From Bosea vaviloviae (GTDB taxonomy: Bacteria > Pseudomonadota > Alphaproteobacteria > Rhizobiales > Beijerinckiaceae), in assembly GCF_001741865.1 (NCBI RefSeq), contig NZ_CP017147.1, positions 5,943,001 through 6,007,000 of the forward strand: a stretch of DNA of 64,000 nucleotides, read 5' to 3'. Positions within the stretch are counted from its first letter, which is position 1; every line of letters starts with the position of its first letter. A program made the position numbers and the translations under genes. Positions 29,238-36,781 of this stretch are shown piece by piece. Below the pieces are notes generated by a model, which worked only from the letters and a program-made list of their open reading frames with translations, had not been told where the DNA came from and made no database searches.

Positions 29238-30515
29238 TCACTCCAGCGGCTGCGTATCCGCAATCTCGATCCCGAAGCCGCTCAACCCCACGAAGGAACG
29301 CGGCGAGGAGGCGAGGTTGACGATCGAGGCGACGCCGATGTCGCGCAGGATCTGTGCGCCCAGCCCAACCTCGCGCCATTGCTGCGTGCGCTGCGCGTCG
29401 GACCCATCCTCGACGCTCTTGATCGGCACGCCGGCCGAGCCGTCGCGCAGATAGATCAGCACGCCGCGGCCATCCTGCGCGAAGCGCTTCAGCGCACACT
29501 GGATCGAGGGCGCGCCGCCGAGCACATCGGCGACGACATTGGCCCTGTGCAACAGCGCCGGCACCTTCTCGCCATCGCCGATCTTGCCCATCACGAAGGC
29601 GAAATGCTGCGTGTCCTCGAAAGGCGTGATGTAGACATGCCCGGTCATCTCGCCGAAGGCGGTCTTCACGGGAAAGCTGTGCACCCGCTCGACCAGCTTC
29701 TCGCGCGACTGGCGATAGGCGATCAGATCCGCGACCGTGATCTGCTGCAATCCGTGCTTCTGGGCAAAGGCCGTGATCTGCGGCCCCTTCATCACCGTGC
29801 CGTCGTCATTGGCGAGCTCGCAGATCACGCCGACCGGCGGCAGGCTCGCGAGCTTGCAGAGATCGACGGCGGCTTCGGTATGGCCCGAGCGCATCAGCAC
29901 GCCGCCATCCTTGGCGATCAGCGGGAAGACATGGCCCGGCCGCACGAAATCGGCTGCGCCCATATTGCCGTTGGCGAGCGCACGCACCGTATTGCAGCGC
30001 TGCTCGGCCGAGATGCCGGTGGTCAGCCCATGCTTGACGTCGACCGTGACGGTGAAGGCGGTGCCGAGCGGGGCATCGTTCGACGACACCATCGGGTCGA
30101 GCCGTAGGCGGCGCGCCTCGCTCGATGTCAGCGGCGCGCAAACGATGCCGCAGGTGTTGCGGATGATGAAGGCCATCTTCTCCGGCGTGCAGAGCGAGGC
30201 GGCAACGATGAGATCGCCCTCGTTCTCGCGGTCGTCGTCATCGGTGACGATGACGATGTCGCCGCGCGCGAAAGCCTCGATGGCCTGGGTGACATTGCTG
30301 GACATGACAGCCTCCCGCGGCCCGACAAGGCCGAGAAAATCATTGGGGGTGACGGAACCGCCCGTGGCGGCGGCGATACGCTCGGCGCTTTCGCGCGAGA
30401 TCCAGGCGCTCTGATCGTTGCAGAGCGCGGTGACGCTCGCCGGCGACAGCCCGACCTGCCGCGCAAAGGCGCTGCGGCCGATCTTGTTCTGCTGGAGCCA
30501 GGCGTCGAGTTTCAT
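29238..30515 (-). CDS. ribB: HTH-RibB-RibA-like fusion: 3,4-dihydroxy-2-butanone 4-phosphate synthase (RibBX type)
   Basis: The 425-residue protein has three parts. Residues 1-65 form a Cro/YdaS-like helix-turn-helix (SAFARQVGLSPASVTALCND). Residues 71-275 are a full RibB domain, with DDDDRENEGDL, GIVCAPLT, RPGHVFPL and GHTEAAVDL, making dihydroxybutanone phosphate for riboflavin. Residues about 280-425 resemble GTP cyclohydrolase II (RVHSFPV, GRGVLIYLRDG, GLGAQILRDIG) but lack the zinc-binding cysteine cluster after the HR..V.DV.G region, so this half should not have RibA activity. RibB with a degenerate RibA tail is known as RibBX in proteobacteria. ATG at residue 71 could be an internal start that omits the HTH. 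No FMN riboswitch was seen upstream. Confidence 0.9.
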   Translation of the reverse strand: MKLDAWLQQNKIGRSAFARQVGLSPASVTALCNDQSAWISRESAERIAAATGGSVTPNDFLGLVGPREAVMSSNVTQAIEAFARGDIVIVTDDDDRENEGDLIVAASLCTPEKMAFIIRNTCGIVCAPLTSSEARRLRLDPMVSSNDAPLGTAFTVTVDVKHGLTTGISAEQRCNTVRALANGNMGAADFVRPGHVFPLIAKDGGVLMRSGHTEAAVDLCKLASLPPVGVICELANDDGTVMKGPQITAFAQKHGLQQITVADLIAYRQSREKLVERVHSFPVKTAFGEMTGHVYITPFEDTQHFAFVMGKIGDGEKVPALLHRANVVADVLGGAPSIQCALKRFAQDGRGVLIYLRDGSAGVPIKSVEDGSDAQRTQQWREVGLGAQILRDIGVASIVNLASSPRSFVGLSGFGIEIADTQPLE

Positions 30516-30695: not shown

Positions 30696-31814
30696 CTACG
30701 GCTGAAACGGCCAGCGCGGTTCCACCACGCCGACCTGCGCGCGGTGGCGCAGATACTGGTCCGCCAGCACGCAGGCGACCATCGCCTCGCCGACCGGCAC
30801 GGCACGGATGCCGACGCAGGGGTCGTGGCGGCCCTTGGTGAACATCTCGGCCTCGCCGCCGGTCCGCGTCACGGTCGCCCGCGTCGCCAGGATCGAGGAG
30901 GTCGGCTTCACCGCGAAGCGCGCCACGATCGGCTGCCCGGTCGAGATACCGCCCAGCACGCCGCCGGCATGGTTCGACAGGAACAACGGCCGGCCGTCAT
31001 TGCCGGCGCGCATCTCGTCGGCATTCTCTTCCCCCGACAGCTCGGCAGCACCGAAACCGTCGCCGATCTCGACGCCCTTGACCGCGTTGATGCTCATCAA
31101 GGCGGCAGCGATCTCCGCATCGAGCTTGCCATAGATCGGCGCGCCCAGCCCTGCCGGCACGCCCTCGGCGACGATCTCCAGCACCGCGCCGATCGAGGAG
31201 CCGGATTTTCTGATACCGTCGAGATAGCTCTCGAACAGCTTGGCCGCCTTGGCGTCGGGGCAGAAGAACGGGTTGTTGCCGATCTCGTCCCAATCCCAGT
31301 TGTTGCGGTCGATCTTGTGCGGACCCATCTGCACCAGCGCGCCGCGCACCACCATGCCGGGCACGACCTTGCGCGCGATCGCGCCGGCCGCGACCCGCAT
31401 CGCGGTCTCGCGCGCCGAGGAGCGCCCGCCGCCACGATAGTCGCGAATGCCGTATTTCACGTCATAGGTGAAATCGGCATGGCCGGGCCGGTACTTGTCC
31501 TTGATGTCCGAATAATCCTTCGAGCGCTGGTCGACATTGTCGATCATCAGCCCGATCGAGGTCCCGGTCGTGACCTGAACGGCATCGCTCTCCCGCGCGA
31601 AGACGCCCGAGACGATCCGCACCTGGTCCGGCTCCTGGCGCTGGGTGGTGAAGCGCGACTGGCCGGGCCGGCGGCGATCGAGCTCGACCTGGATGTCCGC
31701 CTCGGTCAGCGGCAGCAGCGGCGGGCAGCCATCCACGACGCAGCCGATCGCCGGCCCATGGCTCTCGCCGAAGGTCGTGACGCGGAAAAGATGGCCGAAG
31801 GTGTTGTGTGACAT
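30696..31814 (-). CDS. aroC: Chorismate synthase
   Basis: The 372-residue enzyme catalyses the last shikimate step, 5-enolpyruvylshikimate 3-phosphate to chorismate, with reduced FMN. It shows the three family signatures: [14 protein letters not shown] near the N terminus, [24 protein letters not shown] in the middle, and [17 protein letters not shown] near the C terminus. Length is typical for the bacterial monofunctional enzyme. It follows the NRPS gene with a 73-base gap on the same strand, with no functional link evident. Confidence 0.97.
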
Positions 31815-31887: not shown

Positions 31888-34800
31888 TCAATGCCCCGCC
31901 GGTGCCTTCGCCGGCACTGCAGGCGCCCCCTCCCAGCGCGTATGCGCCGGCAGGTTCTCGCCCTTCATGATCACGGTCAGCAGGCCGATCTGGGCGTAGT
32001 CGCCGACATGGGTGTCGTAGAGCACGGTCGCGCCCGCGCCGACGCAGACGCCCTTGCCGAGATGGACCCGGCCGACCTTCATGACGCGATCCTCGTAGAG
32101 ATGCGTCTGCAGGGCGGAATGGGCGTTGATGGTGCAGAAATCACCCATCTTGACGCAGTCGAACTCGGTGATGTCGGTGGTGTCGAGCCAGCAGCCCTTG
32201 CCGAACTTGGCGCCGAACAGCATCAGGAACCAGGGCAGGAACGGCGTGCCGCGCAGATAGTCGAACAGCACCTTGCCGCCCAACCCCCAATACAGCACCG
32301 CCACGGCCTCGGTGCGCATCGCCCACCACGACCACATCGGCTTCATCACCGGCCTGTAGACGCCCATCATCAGCCATTTGATCGCGGCGCAGATCAGCGC
32401 CTGCGTGATCGCGATGACCATGGCGACAGCGGTGAAGGAGACCGCAAGGCCGAGCCAGTCCTGATGGTTGATCTCACGCTGCAGCACGAGATCGACCGCG
32501 ATCGTACCGAAGGTGATGAACAGCATCGCCGGGAACGAGGTGTGGAGCGCCTCGAAGGCGCCGCGCGCGAACTGCTTGCGCAATGACGGCTTATAGGTCC
32601 AGTCGGCGCCGAGATCGACCTTCTGGCGCGTCGGCAGGCGGATCGGCGGCGAGCCGAACCAGGTGTCGCCTGCTTGCATCAACTCGTTGGCGGGCGGCTT
32701 CGACTTGATGCCGATCAGCACGCGGTCGGGAATGACGGCGCCCGGCGGCACGACGGCGTCGTTGCCGACGAAGACCTGATCGCCCGTCCGGGTCATGTCG
32801 AGCCGCATATAGCCGCGCCGCATGTCCTCGTCGCCGAAGACGACCTCGTCGGCGATGAAATTGCCGGCGCCGATGCCGGTGAGATCGTAGCGACCCGAGA
32901 GGTTGGTCGAGATTTCGGCACCCTGGCCGATGCGCGCACCCATGATGCGGTACCAGGCCCGCATATAGATCGTCGCAAACAGCGAGGACAGCGTCTCCAG
33001 CGTCACCTCGGTCGCCAGCGCCACGGTCCATTTGCGGGCGTAGAAGCCCGAATGGATCGAGTACGAGCCCGAGGTCACGCGCGGCAGGATGACCCAGCGC
33101 AGCCCCGCCATCAGCAAGACCGTGAAGGCGATCAAACCGATCGCCGTCGGCCAGGTCAGGATCGGCAGGTACCAGAGATAGCTGATCTCCGACCAGCTCG
33201 CGACCCAGTCGTCGATCTGGTCGAACAGCCAGAAGGCCGGGAAGATCGGCAGCAGGCTGACCGGCGGCAGCACGATCAGCATGGCGATGTAGAAGGCCGT
33301 CATCGCGGCGCGCCGGCGAGTGCTGGCCTGCGCCTGCGGCGGCAGCGAGGCGAGATCGACCATGCCGGTCTTGCGCGCGGGCGTGCCGTCCCAGATCTCG
33401 GCCTCGCCGACATGGGTCCCGGGCGGGATCGCGCTCAAATCGCAGATCTCGGCATGGTCGCCGATGACGCTGCCATGTCCGAACACGACGGAGGCGCCAG
33501 CCGAGACGTCCTTGCCGATGCTGATCTTGCCGAGGATCAGCTTGTCGCCTATCGCCTCGCCATTGGCGAAGGTGGTCTTGGAGCCGAGTGCTGTGCCTTC
33601 GCCGATCTCGATCAGGTCGATCGCGCCGGCCTCGTAATCCGAGATGATGACGTCGCGGCCGACCTTGGCGCCAAGCAGGCGCCAGTAGAACCGCATCACC
33701 GGCGTGCCCTGGAGCCATTTGATGTGCACGAGTCCGGCGACGCGCGCCGCGAACCACCAGCGGAAATAATAGACGCCCCAAAGCGGATAGACGCCCGGCT
33801 TGGTCCGGCCGAGGACGATCCATTTCAGCGCGATCGCGATCAGCCCGGTCACGATGGTGATCGCGACATAGACGCCGAGCAGCGCGAAAACCTGGCCGGT
33901 CAGCGACAAATCCTCGCCCGACATGATCATGTAGGTGACGAAGATGCCGAGCCATTGCGCGGTCGACAGGCCGATGATGATCGGCAGCACCACGGCCTGG
34001 GCGAGGCCGCAGAGGAAACGGCGCAGGAACGGCGGTGGCGTGAAGGAGAGGTCCTGGACCTCCGCGATGCCGCGCCCGTCGAGCAGCGCCGCCATGCCGC
34101 GCAGGGTGCGCGCGCCATAGACGTCCTGCAGCGTGATGCCGGCATAGGCCGGCGTCTCGCGCACGATCGAGATGAAGCGCGCGGCCAGCAGCGAGTGACC
34201 GCCGAGATCCAAGAAGAAATCGGCGTCGAGCGGCAGGCTGGCCGCGCCCAGCACGCGCTTGGCGGCGTCCAGCAGCGCCGCTTCCGTCGCATTGCGCGGC
34301 GGCTCCTGCTCGCCGGCCGCGCTCGGCGCCGTCAGCGGCGCCGCCTTGAGCATCTTGCGATCGACCTTGCCGGAGACCATGCGCGGCAGCGAGCCCACAG
34401 CCTCGAAATGCGCCGGCACCATATAGGGCGGCAGCTTGTCTCGCAGCGCTGCGCGCAAGGCCGCGCCGTCAACCGCCACGCCTGGCTCGGCTACGACGAA
34501 GGCGACGAGCCGCTCGATCTCGTCATCGCTGCGCAGCACCACGGCGGCCTGATTGACGCCCGGCTCATCGGCGAGCTTCGACTCGATCTCGCCGAGCTCG
34601 ACCCGGAAGCCGCGGATCTTGATCTGATCGTCGATGCGGCCGTGGAAGACGATATTGCTGTCGGCATCAAGGCTGACCGCATCGCCGGAGCGATAGAGCA
34701 CCGGGTCGTCGATCCCGCCGAAGGGATTGGCGATGAACTTCTCGGCCGTCAGCTCGGGGCGACCATGATAGCCCTTGGCGACGCCGGGGCCGCCGATCAG

Positions 34801-35901
34801 CAATTCGCCCTGCTCGCCGGGGCCGACCAGCTGCATCGCCTCATTGACGATATAGGCGGTGTAGTTGGCGATCGGCTGCCCGATCGTCACGACCTCGCCC
34901 GGCCTGACCTCGGCCGCGGTCGCGACCACGGTCGCCTCGGTCGGGCCATAGGTGTTGAGGATGCGCCGTCCCGGCTGCGACCATTTCTGGACGATCGCCG
35001 GCGGCAGGGCCTCGCCGCCGAGCAGGATCAGCCTGAGCGAAGGCACGTCCGAGGACAGGATGCCGAGCAGGGTCGGCACCGTGTCGATCACGGTCACGCC
35101 GGCCTCGGTCAGCAGAGCCGGGAGTTTTTCCGCATCGCCCATGGTCTCGGGGCTCGCAACATAGAGAGCCGCGCCGACCAGATAGGGCGTCCAGATCTCC
35201 TCCATCGACAGGTCGAAGGCGACCGAAGCGCCCTGGAACACGACGTCGTCGGGACCGAAGCCGTAGAAGGCGTTCCCCGAGCGCAGGAAATGGCAGATAT
35301 TGCGATGGCTGATGACGATCGCCTTGGGCGTACCCGTCGAGCCGGAGGTGTAGATCAGATAGGCGGGGTGGTCCTTGCTCAGGCCGACTGCCCGCGCCGG
35401 CATCTCGGCGCCGTCGTCGCGAGCCGCCAGATCCTCGGGGCTCCAGACCGTGCGGCCCGTGCCCGCTGCCCTGCTCTGCCAATCCGCGGAGGTGACGAGG
35501 CCCTTGGCCTCGGCGTCCTTCAGGCAAACGGCGATCCGCTCCACCGGCGCCTCGGCGTCGAACGGCACCCAGGCCGCGCCTGAACGCGTGATCGCGATCT
35601 GCGTGATCAGGAGATCGATGCCGCGCGGCATCCACAGGCCGACCATGTCGCCGGGACCGACGCCCGCCAGGGCCAGGCCCCGCGCCTGCCGCCCTGCGGC
35701 GGCCCAGACCTCGGCATAGCTCAAACGTCGCGCGCCATCGCGCAAGGCCGTCTCGCCGCCGCGCGCTGCGACGGTCGCGGCGAAGATGTCGCCCAGCACC
35801 TCGTCTCGGATCAGATCCGGGCGCTTCTCGCCCGCCAGGGTCGCGAGCGGCTGCGCGCCCATCACGGCCGTCTTTGCCGACAAATTGCTGATGTCGTTCA
35901 T
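31888..35901 (-). CDS. Membrane-bound single-module NRPS of the Pls/PosA type (poly-amino-acid synthetase-like)
   Basis: The 1337-residue protein has an adenylation domain (about 35-520; YTSGSTGTPK, TYGPTEAT, YRSGDAV, GRIDDQIKIRG, GK512VDRK), a carrier domain with phosphopantetheine Ser570 in DLGGHSLL, then three repeated units each with two membrane helices (about 633-697, 868-938, 1122-1178) and a left-handed beta-helix-like hexapeptide region. There is no canonical condensation or thioesterase domain. This A-T-six-helix, triple C-like layout is that of epsilon-poly-L-lysine synthetase. The product is probably a homopolymer or short oligomer made at the membrane. By eye the A-domain pocket is D230 L231 E234 D273 I292 L294 T317 V325 V326 K512. 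The extra acidic residues favour a basic amino acid, as inference. No tailoring genes adjoin it. Confidence 0.92.
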   Translation of the reverse strand: MNDISNLSAKTAVMGAQPLATLAGEKRPDLIRDEVLGDIFAATVAARGGETALRDGARRLSYAEVWAAAGRQARGLALAGVGPGDMVGLWMPRGIDLLITQIAITRSGAAWVPFDAEAPVERIAVCLKDAEAKGLVTSADWQSRAAGTGRTVWSPEDLAARDDGAEMPARAVGLSKDHPAYLIYTSGSTGTPKAIVISHRNICHFLRSGNAFYGFGPDDVVFQGASVAFDLSMEEIWTPYLVGAALYVASPETMGDAEKLPALLTEAGVTVIDTVPTLLGILSSDVPSLRLILLGGEALPPAIVQKWSQPGRRILNTYGPTEATVVATAAEVRPGEVVTIGQPIANYTAYIVNEAMQLVGPGEQGELLIGGPGVAKGYHGRPELTAEKFIANPFGGIDDPVLYRSGDAVSLDADSNIVFHGRIDDQIKIRGFRVELGEIESKLADEPGVNQAAVVLRSDDEIERLVAFVVAEPGVAVDGAALRAALRDKLPPYMVPAHFEAVGSLPRMVSGKVDRKMLKAAPLTAPSAAGEQEPPRNATEAALLDAAKRVLGAASLPLDADFFLDLGGHSLLAARFISIVRETPAYAGITLQDVYGARTLRGMAALLDGRGIAEVQDLSFTPPPFLRRFLCGLAQAVVLPIIIGLSTAQWLGIFVTYMIMSGEDLSLTGQVFALLGVYVAITIVTGLIAIALKWIVLGRTKPGVYPLWGVYYFRWWFAARVAGLVHIKWLQGTPVMRFYWRLLGAKVGRDVIISDYEAGAIDLIEIGEGTALGSKTTFANGEAIGDKLILGKISIGKDVSAGASVVFGHGSVIGDHAEICDLSAIPPGTHVGEAEIWDGTPARKTGMVDLASLPPQAQASTRRRAAMTAFYIAMLIVLPPVSLLPIFPAFWLFDQIDDWVASWSEISYLWYLPILTWPTAIGLIAFTVLLMAGLRWVILPRVTSGSYSIHSGFYARKWTVALATEVTLETLSSLFATIYMRAWYRIMGARIGQGAEISTNLSGRYDLTGIGAGNFIADEVVFGDEDMRRGYMRLDMTRTGDQVFVGNDAVVPPGAVIPDRVLIGIKSKPPANELMQAGDTWFGSPPIRLPTRQKVDLGADWTYKPSLRKQFARGAFEALHTSFPAMLFITFGTIAVDLVLQREINHQDWLGLAVSFTAVAMVIAITQALICAAIKWLMMGVYRPVMKPMWSWWAMRTEAVAVLYWGLGGKVLFDYLRGTPFLPWFLMLFGAKFGKGCWLDTTDITEFDCVKMGDFCTINAHSALQTHLYEDRVMKVGRVHLGKGVCVGAGATVLYDTHVGDYAQIGLLTVIMKGENLPAHTRWEGAPAVPAKAPAGH

Positions 35902-36172
35902 CGCGCCCCGCTGCGCTCAGAACCACGACATCCCGGAGCGAGGCGGAAAGCACCCTCGAACCAGGCACTCGCACCCCTGCGACGCACCTTCATAAAAACA
36001 CGGGTGAGCCACACCCCCCGATGCGCTTTTCCCGCTGTGCCTTCCGGCCGAACATGCCGTCGCCGCACGAAACTGCCTTAGCAGAACGACCTTGCCAAAC
36101 CATGACTGAACCCGTGATGAACGCCTCGGTTCCACCACGCGGCCGTTGCAGCAGCCTAATCCCGCAGCGCTT
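35902..36172. other. Intergenic stretch upstream of the NRPS gene
   Basis: About 270 bases that must hold the NRPS promoter. No gene, strong palindrome or riboswitch is recognised. The histidine-phosphatase gene ends at its right border on the same strand. Confidence 0.5.
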
Positions 36173-36781
36173 TTAGAGCCAGTCGGCCTGATTGCCCGAC
36201 ACGACAAGGATCTTGCCCTGCCAGATATCGACGAGCGCGGCTTTCTGCGAAGACACCGCCCCAACCAGCGCCAGGACGGCGCGCGCGATGCCGCCATGGC
36301 TGACGATAACCGTCTCGCGCTGCAGCTCCTCCAGCACGGGCCTGATGCGCTCGGCGAGCATCCGGTAGCTCTCGCCGCCTGGCGGGACGAAGCCCCATTT
36401 GTCGCGCTCGCGCATCTGCGCCTGTTCGCGCTCGCTCTTGCGGATCTCGCGCCAGGTGAAGCCTTCCCAATCGCCGAAGGTCAGCTCGCGCAAGCGTCCG
36501 TCGATACGGTAGGCCCCAGGCTCCAGCTGCAACTGGCCGCGCAGGATGTCCATGGTCTCGCGCGCACGCTCCATCGGCGAGGCAACATAGTCGAACGCCG
36601 CGAAATCCGGTGCCAGGGCCTTCAGCCGCTCGGCCGCTTCTGCGGCCTGCGTCCGCCCCAGAGCGTTGAGCGGGATGTCCTGGGCGCCCTGCAGGCGGCC
36701 TTCGCGATTCCACTCGGTTTCGCCGTGGCGAATGAGAATGAGCCGTTGCGGGAGCGTGATCGGGACCATGTGGGCGCTCAT
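36173..36781 (-). CDS. Histidine phosphatase family protein (phosphoglycerate mutase-like)
   Basis: The 202-residue protein has the phosphohistidine motif LILIRHGETEWNREGRLQG, ASPMERARETMDIL, the acid residue in RELTFGDWEG and the second catalytic histidine in VIVSHGGIARA. It is of the GpmB/CobC-like branch and may be a general phosphatase rather than a glycolytic mutase. ATG 36781 or ATG 36769 could be the start; a long upstream extension lacks conservation and overlaps the divergent folP promoter. Confidence 0.88.
   Translation of the reverse strand: MSAHMVPITLPQRLILIRHGETEWNREGRLQGAQDIPLNALGRTQAAEAAERLKALAPDFAAFDYVASPMERARETMDILRGQLQLEPGAYRIDGRLRELTFGDWEGFTWREIRKSEREQAQMRERDKWGFVPPGGESYRMLAERIRPVLEELQRETVIVSHGGIARAVLALVGAVSSQKAALVDIWQGKILVVSGNQADWL

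Follow-up and report, generated by a model that had tools for sequence, protein, structure and literature searches.

PosA of Acinetobacter baumannii makes δ-poly-L-ornithine from a single gene without tailoring genes, and its C-terminal region has been modelled as six membrane helices under three packed left-handed β-helices (Patel and Gulick, PMC10522769). Pls, the ε-poly-L-lysine synthetase of Streptomyces, has an A–T–C1–C2–C3 layout (adenylation, thiolation and three C-terminal units) with six membrane helices and neither a condensation nor a thioesterase domain (PMC8117764, PMC8506220). Patel and Gulick (2023, PMC10522769) list alphaproteobacterial members of the family, as well as a 'DLEDIGTV(T/V/I)K' pocket-code group of Archaea, Rhizobia, Methylobacterium and others that they describe as uncharacterised. 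A NAPAA cluster with the code DLEDLGTVVK has been reported from every complete Bosea genome, Bosea sp. NBC_00550 and seven more, in an announcement that gives neither product nor function (PMC10508160). Among open-licence PubMed Central papers, no cryo-electron microscopy paper on the synthetase was found. We describe a gene of this type from Bosea vaviloviae, in a stretch of 64,000 nucleotides (assembly GCF_001741865.1, contig NZ_CP017147.1, positions 5,943,001–6,007,000) that is called the window throughout. No difference from the reported Bosea clusters was found, and the main copy of one congener (G039) is 86% identical to the window protein. The gene type is already known, being annotated and in print for Bosea; a sequence-only reading of the window was correct in its observation and in the family, and overstated the novelty in supposing such a gene undescribed in this lineage.

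The gene reads without interruption from ATG to stop on the minus strand and encodes 1337 residues (Table 1), and the plus-strand reading of the same interval in the same frame contains stop codons. Pfam places AMP-binding at residues 41–379 (271.7 bits), AMP-binding_C at 438–512 and PP-binding at 542–607, and a scan to E 0.1 found no Condensation or Thioesterase domain. One adenylation (A) domain and one thiolation (T) domain, with no condensation (C) or thioesterase (TE) domain, is the composition expected of the Pls/PosA family. Residues 634–1328 match NCBIfam TIGR02353 (Pls/PosA family non-ribosomal peptide synthetase, terminal domain) over model positions 2–695 of 695, with a score of 591.7 bits against a curated cut-off of 423.1 bits. 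Three pairs of membrane segments stand out in the hydropathy profile, near residues 625–656/665–699, 865–894/911–942 and 1121–1141/1147–1181. The three repeats that carry them are mutually homologous in profile–profile comparison (E values of 7.5e-41 for C1–C2, 5.8e-42 for C1–C3 and 7.6e-27 for C2–C3), whereas probabilities were 0.3% and 0.05% in two control runs with the A domain. The strength of the repeat–repeat matches and the low control probabilities establish the three repeats as real, far beyond chance. Three tandem repeats with six membrane helices are also a family hallmark, seen here by hydropathy and profile comparison. Pfam hexapeptide calls cover only part of the C-terminal repeat region (Hexapep, 35.5 bits in two stretches, the best at 793–820). 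The position and integrity of the gene, its domain composition, the threefold repeat of two helices plus a hexapeptide region, and the Pls-type layout and family, all proposed in the sequence-only reading, stood up to these searches. Among solved structures, the A domain scores 398 bits against the PosA core (8g95) and 268 bits against the Pls A domain (7wew); the top scores are to linear gramicidin synthetase A, but these are sums over two A domains (about 246 + 240 bits). The window protein is an intact single-protein synthetase of the Pls/PosA family.

TIGR02353 scored over its cut-off in 77 of 121 genomes, namely in all 67 of the genus (G000–G066) and in 10 of 54 others. A class-wide even sample gave 10 of 385 genomes including the window's own, or 9 of 384 others, three of which belong to the window's family. 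One of 14 control genomes was over the cut-off, and the weak matches below it in 13 of the 14 were not counted. Both distribution searches scored only part of the first-look candidates in most genomes. One congener (G031) passes only with its pieces scored together, and in another (G059) both of two matches lie on short contigs with incomplete frames. A single copy exceeds the cut-off in the window genome; leaving G059 aside, 10 of the 67 genus genomes are listed with an additional copy whose frame is full-length. A contig scan with two patterns, one of which is a general A-domain motif that mostly finds ordinary non-ribosomal peptide synthetases (NRPSs), met the terminal domain at 9 of 80 loci. 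Compared with six main-type congeners, the synthetase has a ratio of non-synonymous to synonymous substitution rates (dN/dS) of 0.09–0.26, about twice that of aroC (0.05–0.11), higher than that of fabI (0.01–0.10) and close to that of gpm (0.04–0.27). The gene is under purifying selection in the genus.

Ten pocket positions of the GrsA scheme were located through anchor motifs; they are occupied by D230, L231, E234, D273, L293, G295, T317, V325, V326 and K512, which spell DLEDLGTVVK. The reading is independently confirmed by the Bosea announcement, which gives the same code (PMC10508160). Within the genus the code is nearly fixed: DLEDLGTVVK in 56 of 67 copies, DLEDIGTVVK in eight and DLEDIGSVVK in two, with one copy truncated. 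Leu rather than Ile at position 5 in most genus copies is the difference from the DLEDIGTV(T/V/I)K group, which is of the same code class. Asp230 and Glu234, the Asp and Glu that mark the Pls/PosA family at positions 1 and 3, are kept in 66 of the 67 copies, the remaining copy being truncated there. They correspond to PosA Asp217 and Glu221, which structure and mutants have shown to bind the two amines of the substrate, and position 2 sets the chain length, with Phe for diaminopropionate or diaminobutyrate, Met for ornithine and Ala for lysine (PMC10522769). Leu231 at this position is nearest in size to the Met of ornithine pockets and is not the Ala of Pls-type lysine pockets. The code has eight of ten letters in common with the lysine code DGEDHGTVVK and seven of ten with the ornithine code DGEDHGTVTK (PMC12283262). 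PosA has the same architecture, and A. baumannii copies are 42% identical to the window protein over 98% of its length; the PosA pocket, in contrast, is DMEHNGTVSK, differing at positions 2, 4, 5 and 9, which sets the window protein apart from PosA proper. The product of PosA has been shown; that of the window protein is predicted. From the pocket, it is well supported that the predicted substrate is a basic amino acid; ornithine would be the first choice, followed by lysine and then by diaminobutyrate or arginine. ε-Poly-lysine was tried as the default product and rejected on the difference between this code and lysine codes with Ala at position 2.

Residue conservation was read from an alignment of 24 rows (A1: the window protein and 23 others at 29–97% identity to it), from one of 10 rows that includes actinobacterial and acidobacterial members (A2), and from the genus copies. 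The invariant residues of A1 include Ser570 of the carrier, Asp230, Glu234 and Lys512 of the A domain, and Gln1265, His1267, Glu1270 and Lys1275 of C3; in A2 the Gln, His and Asp1271 of the C3 motif are invariant and its Glu and Lys positions vary. The motif Gln and His are kept in 24/24, 10/10 and 67/67 sequences, respectively, and Ser570, Lys512 and the tested C3 residues are retained in all 67 genus copies. Loss of adenylation or carrier residues, which the sequence-only reading had named as a sign of error, did not occur, with Ser570, Asp230 and Lys512 in place. In profile alignments of the window protein, no QxH was found at the places of C1 and C2 that match the C3 motif. Since QxH is conserved in C3 and missing from its C1 and C2 counterparts, C3 is the best candidate for the active unit and its QTH-x-x-ED motif a candidate active site. 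The three C domains were reportedly the subject of a mutational study by Kito in 2013, as mentioned in citing papers (PMC8949500, PMC7179176, PMC4668381, PMC8506220). All three C units are stated to have been found essential in Pls (PMC4668381).

Taken together, we consider it probable that the gene encodes a single-module inner-membrane synthetase of Pls/PosA type, which joins a basic amino acid through isopeptide bonds into a short cationic homopolymer. The A domain would activate the amino acid as its adenylate and load it onto Ser570 of the carrier, which would itself require activation by a phosphopantetheinyl transferase from another locus of the genome. The packed, membrane-anchored C1–C3 units would move the loaded aminoacyl group onto the side-chain amine of the growing chain, with QTH-x-x-ED-x-x-x-K of C3 as the likely chemical centre; the monomer would be ornithine, failing that lysine, and then diaminobutyrate. 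Tentatively, such a polymer might serve a general envelope or stress role rather than act as a strain-specific antibiotic, because no sampled congener lacks the gene and most have it at the same housekeeping locus.

Several observations weigh against this picture. The code agrees with the arginine consensus at seven of ten positions as well (PMC12283262), so that a diamino acid is not certain, and Asp273 stands where PosA has His (PMC10522769). In open-licence PubMed Central papers, no product is reported for any enzyme with this code. The evidence for a catalytic role of the C3 motif is its conservation. No phosphopantetheinyl transferase lies beside the gene in the window, in contrast to Rhizobium, whose copy is of the same code class, and to Shinella and Sphingomonas, whose codes differ. 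Finally, comparison with a small-genome congener (L068) gave a dN/dS of 0.49 for the whole gene and 0.71 for the carrier domain, values that give no sign of strong constraint and that distance and saturation make hard to read.

The alternatives concern both monomer and chemistry. The window protein shares its architecture with Pls and eight of ten code letters with one lysine code, and it might accordingly make ε-poly-L-lysine proper, as the Streptomyces enzyme does. We regard this as possible but rather unlikely, because Ala occupies position 2 in Pls-type lysine pockets (PMC10522769), rows with DAES-type codes fall on other branches of the tree described below, and the A domain is more distant from Pls than from the PosA core. 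The analogy to ε-poly-lysine drawn in the sequence-only reading therefore holds for architecture and family; poly-lysine as the best guess at the product does not, the pocket lacking Ala at position 2. The activation of arginine or another guanidino amino acid, to give a polymer or conjugate outside the diamino-acid set, is disfavoured because guanidino groups, as poor nucleophiles, are ill suited to the growth of an isopeptide chain. This second possibility, which seems quite unlikely to us, draws on the acid pair Glu239 and Asp278 (GrsA numbering), which fits the arginine consensus together with Leu299, Gly301 and Val330 (PMC12283262), and on a Pls-family A domain from Bdellovibrionales that showed activity with arginine but with none of the four diamino acids tested (PMC10522769). 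However, the same acid pair is present in the lysine and ornithine codes DGEDHGTVVK and DMEDVGSVDK (PMC12283262).

An envelope enzyme of another kind can also be envisaged, in which the terminal domain does not polymerise but places a single aminoacyl group on an envelope acceptor, for instance a lipid or polyamine, so that the surface gains a cationic modification. The occurrence of the gene in every sampled congener, for the most part at a housekeeping site, would suit such a role, as would the resemblance of the C parts to hexapeptide acyltransferases (Pfam). We judge it very improbable, given that characterised family members polymerise (PMC10522769, PMC4668381) and that the conserved C3 motif and all three repeats are retained. 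A more far-reaching proposal is that the alphaproteobacterial clade with DLED pockets makes a homopolymer outside those listed in PMC10522769, for example of arginine or an unusual basic amino acid, which in Bosea would be a constitutive genus-wide cell component and not an antibiotic; this we consider unlikely.

Table 1. Features of the synthetase locus in the window.
Feature	Position	Strand	Basis or remark
Pls/PosA-family synthetase gene, 1337 aa (P0001)	31888..35901	minus	Open reading frame (ORF); TIGR02353, 591.7 bits
Adenylation domain, about residues 20–520, pocket code DLEDLGTVVK	34342..35844	minus	Pfam AMP-binding and AMP-binding_C; code reading
Carrier (thiolation) domain, residues 542–607, phosphopantetheine Ser570 in GGHSL	34081..34278	minus	Pfam PP-binding; Ser kept in 67/67
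Repeat C1, residues 622–866, two membrane segments and hexapeptide-type part	33304..34038	minus	Pfam, profile comparison
Repeat C2, residues 860–1118	32548..33324	minus	Profile comparison
Repeat C3, residues 1112–1330, contains QTHLYEDRVMK motif	31912..32568	minus	Profile comparison
QTHLYEDRVMK motif, residues 1265–1275, candidate polymerisation active site	32077..32109	minus	Conservation of Q and H
aroC, chorismate synthase, next gene downstream, 73 bp gap	30696..31814	minus	Neighbouring gene, separate from the synthetase
gpm-like histidine phosphatase, next gene upstream	36173..36780	minus	Context; start approximate, read by eye

As the sequence-only reading had it, the gene stands in the window between aroC and a phosphatase gene, with no tailoring or export gene directly adjoining. 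The main copies of all 66 congeners were compared with this arrangement. In 60 of 67 genomes aroC lies downstream on the same strand, no more than 1.7 kb away, and in 54 the gpm-like phosphatase lies upstream on that strand at a distance of up to 0.5 kb; at least one of these two relations is seen in 66, and the remaining copy is on a contig of 4.3 kb. A shift of gpm and fabI to the far side, in opposite orientation, is found in 11 of the 67. The synthetase gene is thus mostly located between gpm and aroC in the genus. aroC was located in seven of the genomes that have no synthetase gene over the cut-off, and five of these were compared: in four, gpm adjoins aroC with no synthetase match between them (fabI being beside gpm in three of the four), and in the fifth no gpm was found. 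The synthetase gene was thus probably inserted into an older fabI–gpm–aroC row. Between gpm and the synthetase gene there is a terminator-like site at 36016–36002, a weak signal with three sites in the region against 1.6 expected in shuffles, and no σ70-like promoter was found in the region (0 against 0.4 expected). Three PF01648 proteins are over cut-off in the window genome, one of them with an AASDHPPT-type N-terminal part, so that the carrier can probably be activated in trans.

Two further observations concern the surroundings of the locus and the transferases. The RibB protein encoded at 29238–30515 of the window (minus strand) has an extra N-terminal stretch and a much reduced RibA part; its residues 5–36 match the phage-associated family BcepMu gp16 weakly, below the cut-off, and look helix–turn–helix-like by eye. 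Elsewhere in the window genome (L179 2010–3206, minus strand, G000:C1 at about 4.02 Mb), the longer of the Sfp-like transferases stands beside an ORF that by eye resembles the terminal part of a conventional, thioesterase-bearing NRPS, from which a second NRPS system is probably present.

In a plasmid collection, 46 records match the window protein at E 1e-100 or better. Among the 25 of these matches listed, identities are about 60% for Azospirillum, about 50% for Rhizobium (with R. tropici CIAT 899), 38% for Sphingomonas and 32–36% for Streptantibioticus, Shinella, Streptomyces and Rhodococcus, beside the A. baumannii copies already mentioned. Copies in Azospirillum, Rhizobium, Shinella and Sphingomonas records carry the annotation 'Pls/PosA family'. 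In three records, one from Rhizobium, one from Shinella and one from Sphingomonas, a phosphopantetheinyl transferase directly follows the gene; of these copies only that of Rhizobium has a DLED code. In two Azospirillum records no such transferase is listed beside the gene, and the neighbours there (fumarate hydratase and an Lrp regulator) offer no hint of the substrate. A quick tree was built from 39 chosen rows, with a program warning about long branches. All 23 rows that have DLED codes, the class to which the DLEDIGTV(T/V/I)K group belongs, fall into a single clade (SH-aLRT 100); the code is absent from all other rows.

Six second copies in the genus (L073–L078, from G050, G053, G057, G066, G024 and G014) are 54–55% identical to the window gene. 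In the tree they group with the Azospirillum megaplasmid copies, apart from the main copies, which suggests horizontal gain. A conserved biosynthetic neighbourhood of these copies was considered and rejected: the six loci share only the pls frame and its antisense, and other matches, between two or three of the six, are at 26–41% identity, with one at 63%. In three small-genome congeners (L068, L072 and L191) the copy occupies the locus of the main copies or one close to it, between gpm and aroC in two and beside gpm in the third, but is only about 58% identical to the window gene. These copies group with a Rhizobium plasmid copy and not with the main clade of the genus, which weighs against a simple vertical story; they may reflect replacement or fast divergence.

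Variant arrangements were seen in two other genomes. In G083 (L081, 11264–13777 and 13801–17151, minus strand) the arrangement is split over two genes: a Pls-type terminal domain has a 1116-residue gene to itself, and the gene immediately downstream encodes a partial Condensation domain, an A domain and a T domain. In G171 (L085, 8892–19313, minus strand) a stop-free frame of 3474 residues ends in a terminal domain over the cut-off, with the A domain partly in frame. A multimodular NRPS was rejected here, as only AMP-binding_C and hexapeptides were found in frame (Pfam, E 1e-5); a frameshift or assembly error is probable, with the remainder non-coding or out of frame.

What is added here to a known gene type is its presence in 67 of 67 genus genomes against 9 of 384 others sampled from the class, a mostly shared locus, purifying selection, a nearly fixed code and a candidate motif in C3. 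The contrast matters in that an enzyme of secondary-metabolite type, rare in the class sample, is core, intact and constrained in one genus. It raises the question of a role for poly-amino acids beyond the killing of competitors, in a culturable soil bacterium. Identification of the product, which we expect to be a short isopeptide-linked homopolymer of a basic amino acid, would bear on the substrate of the uncharacterised enzyme group in Rhizobium, Azospirillum and Methylobacterium.

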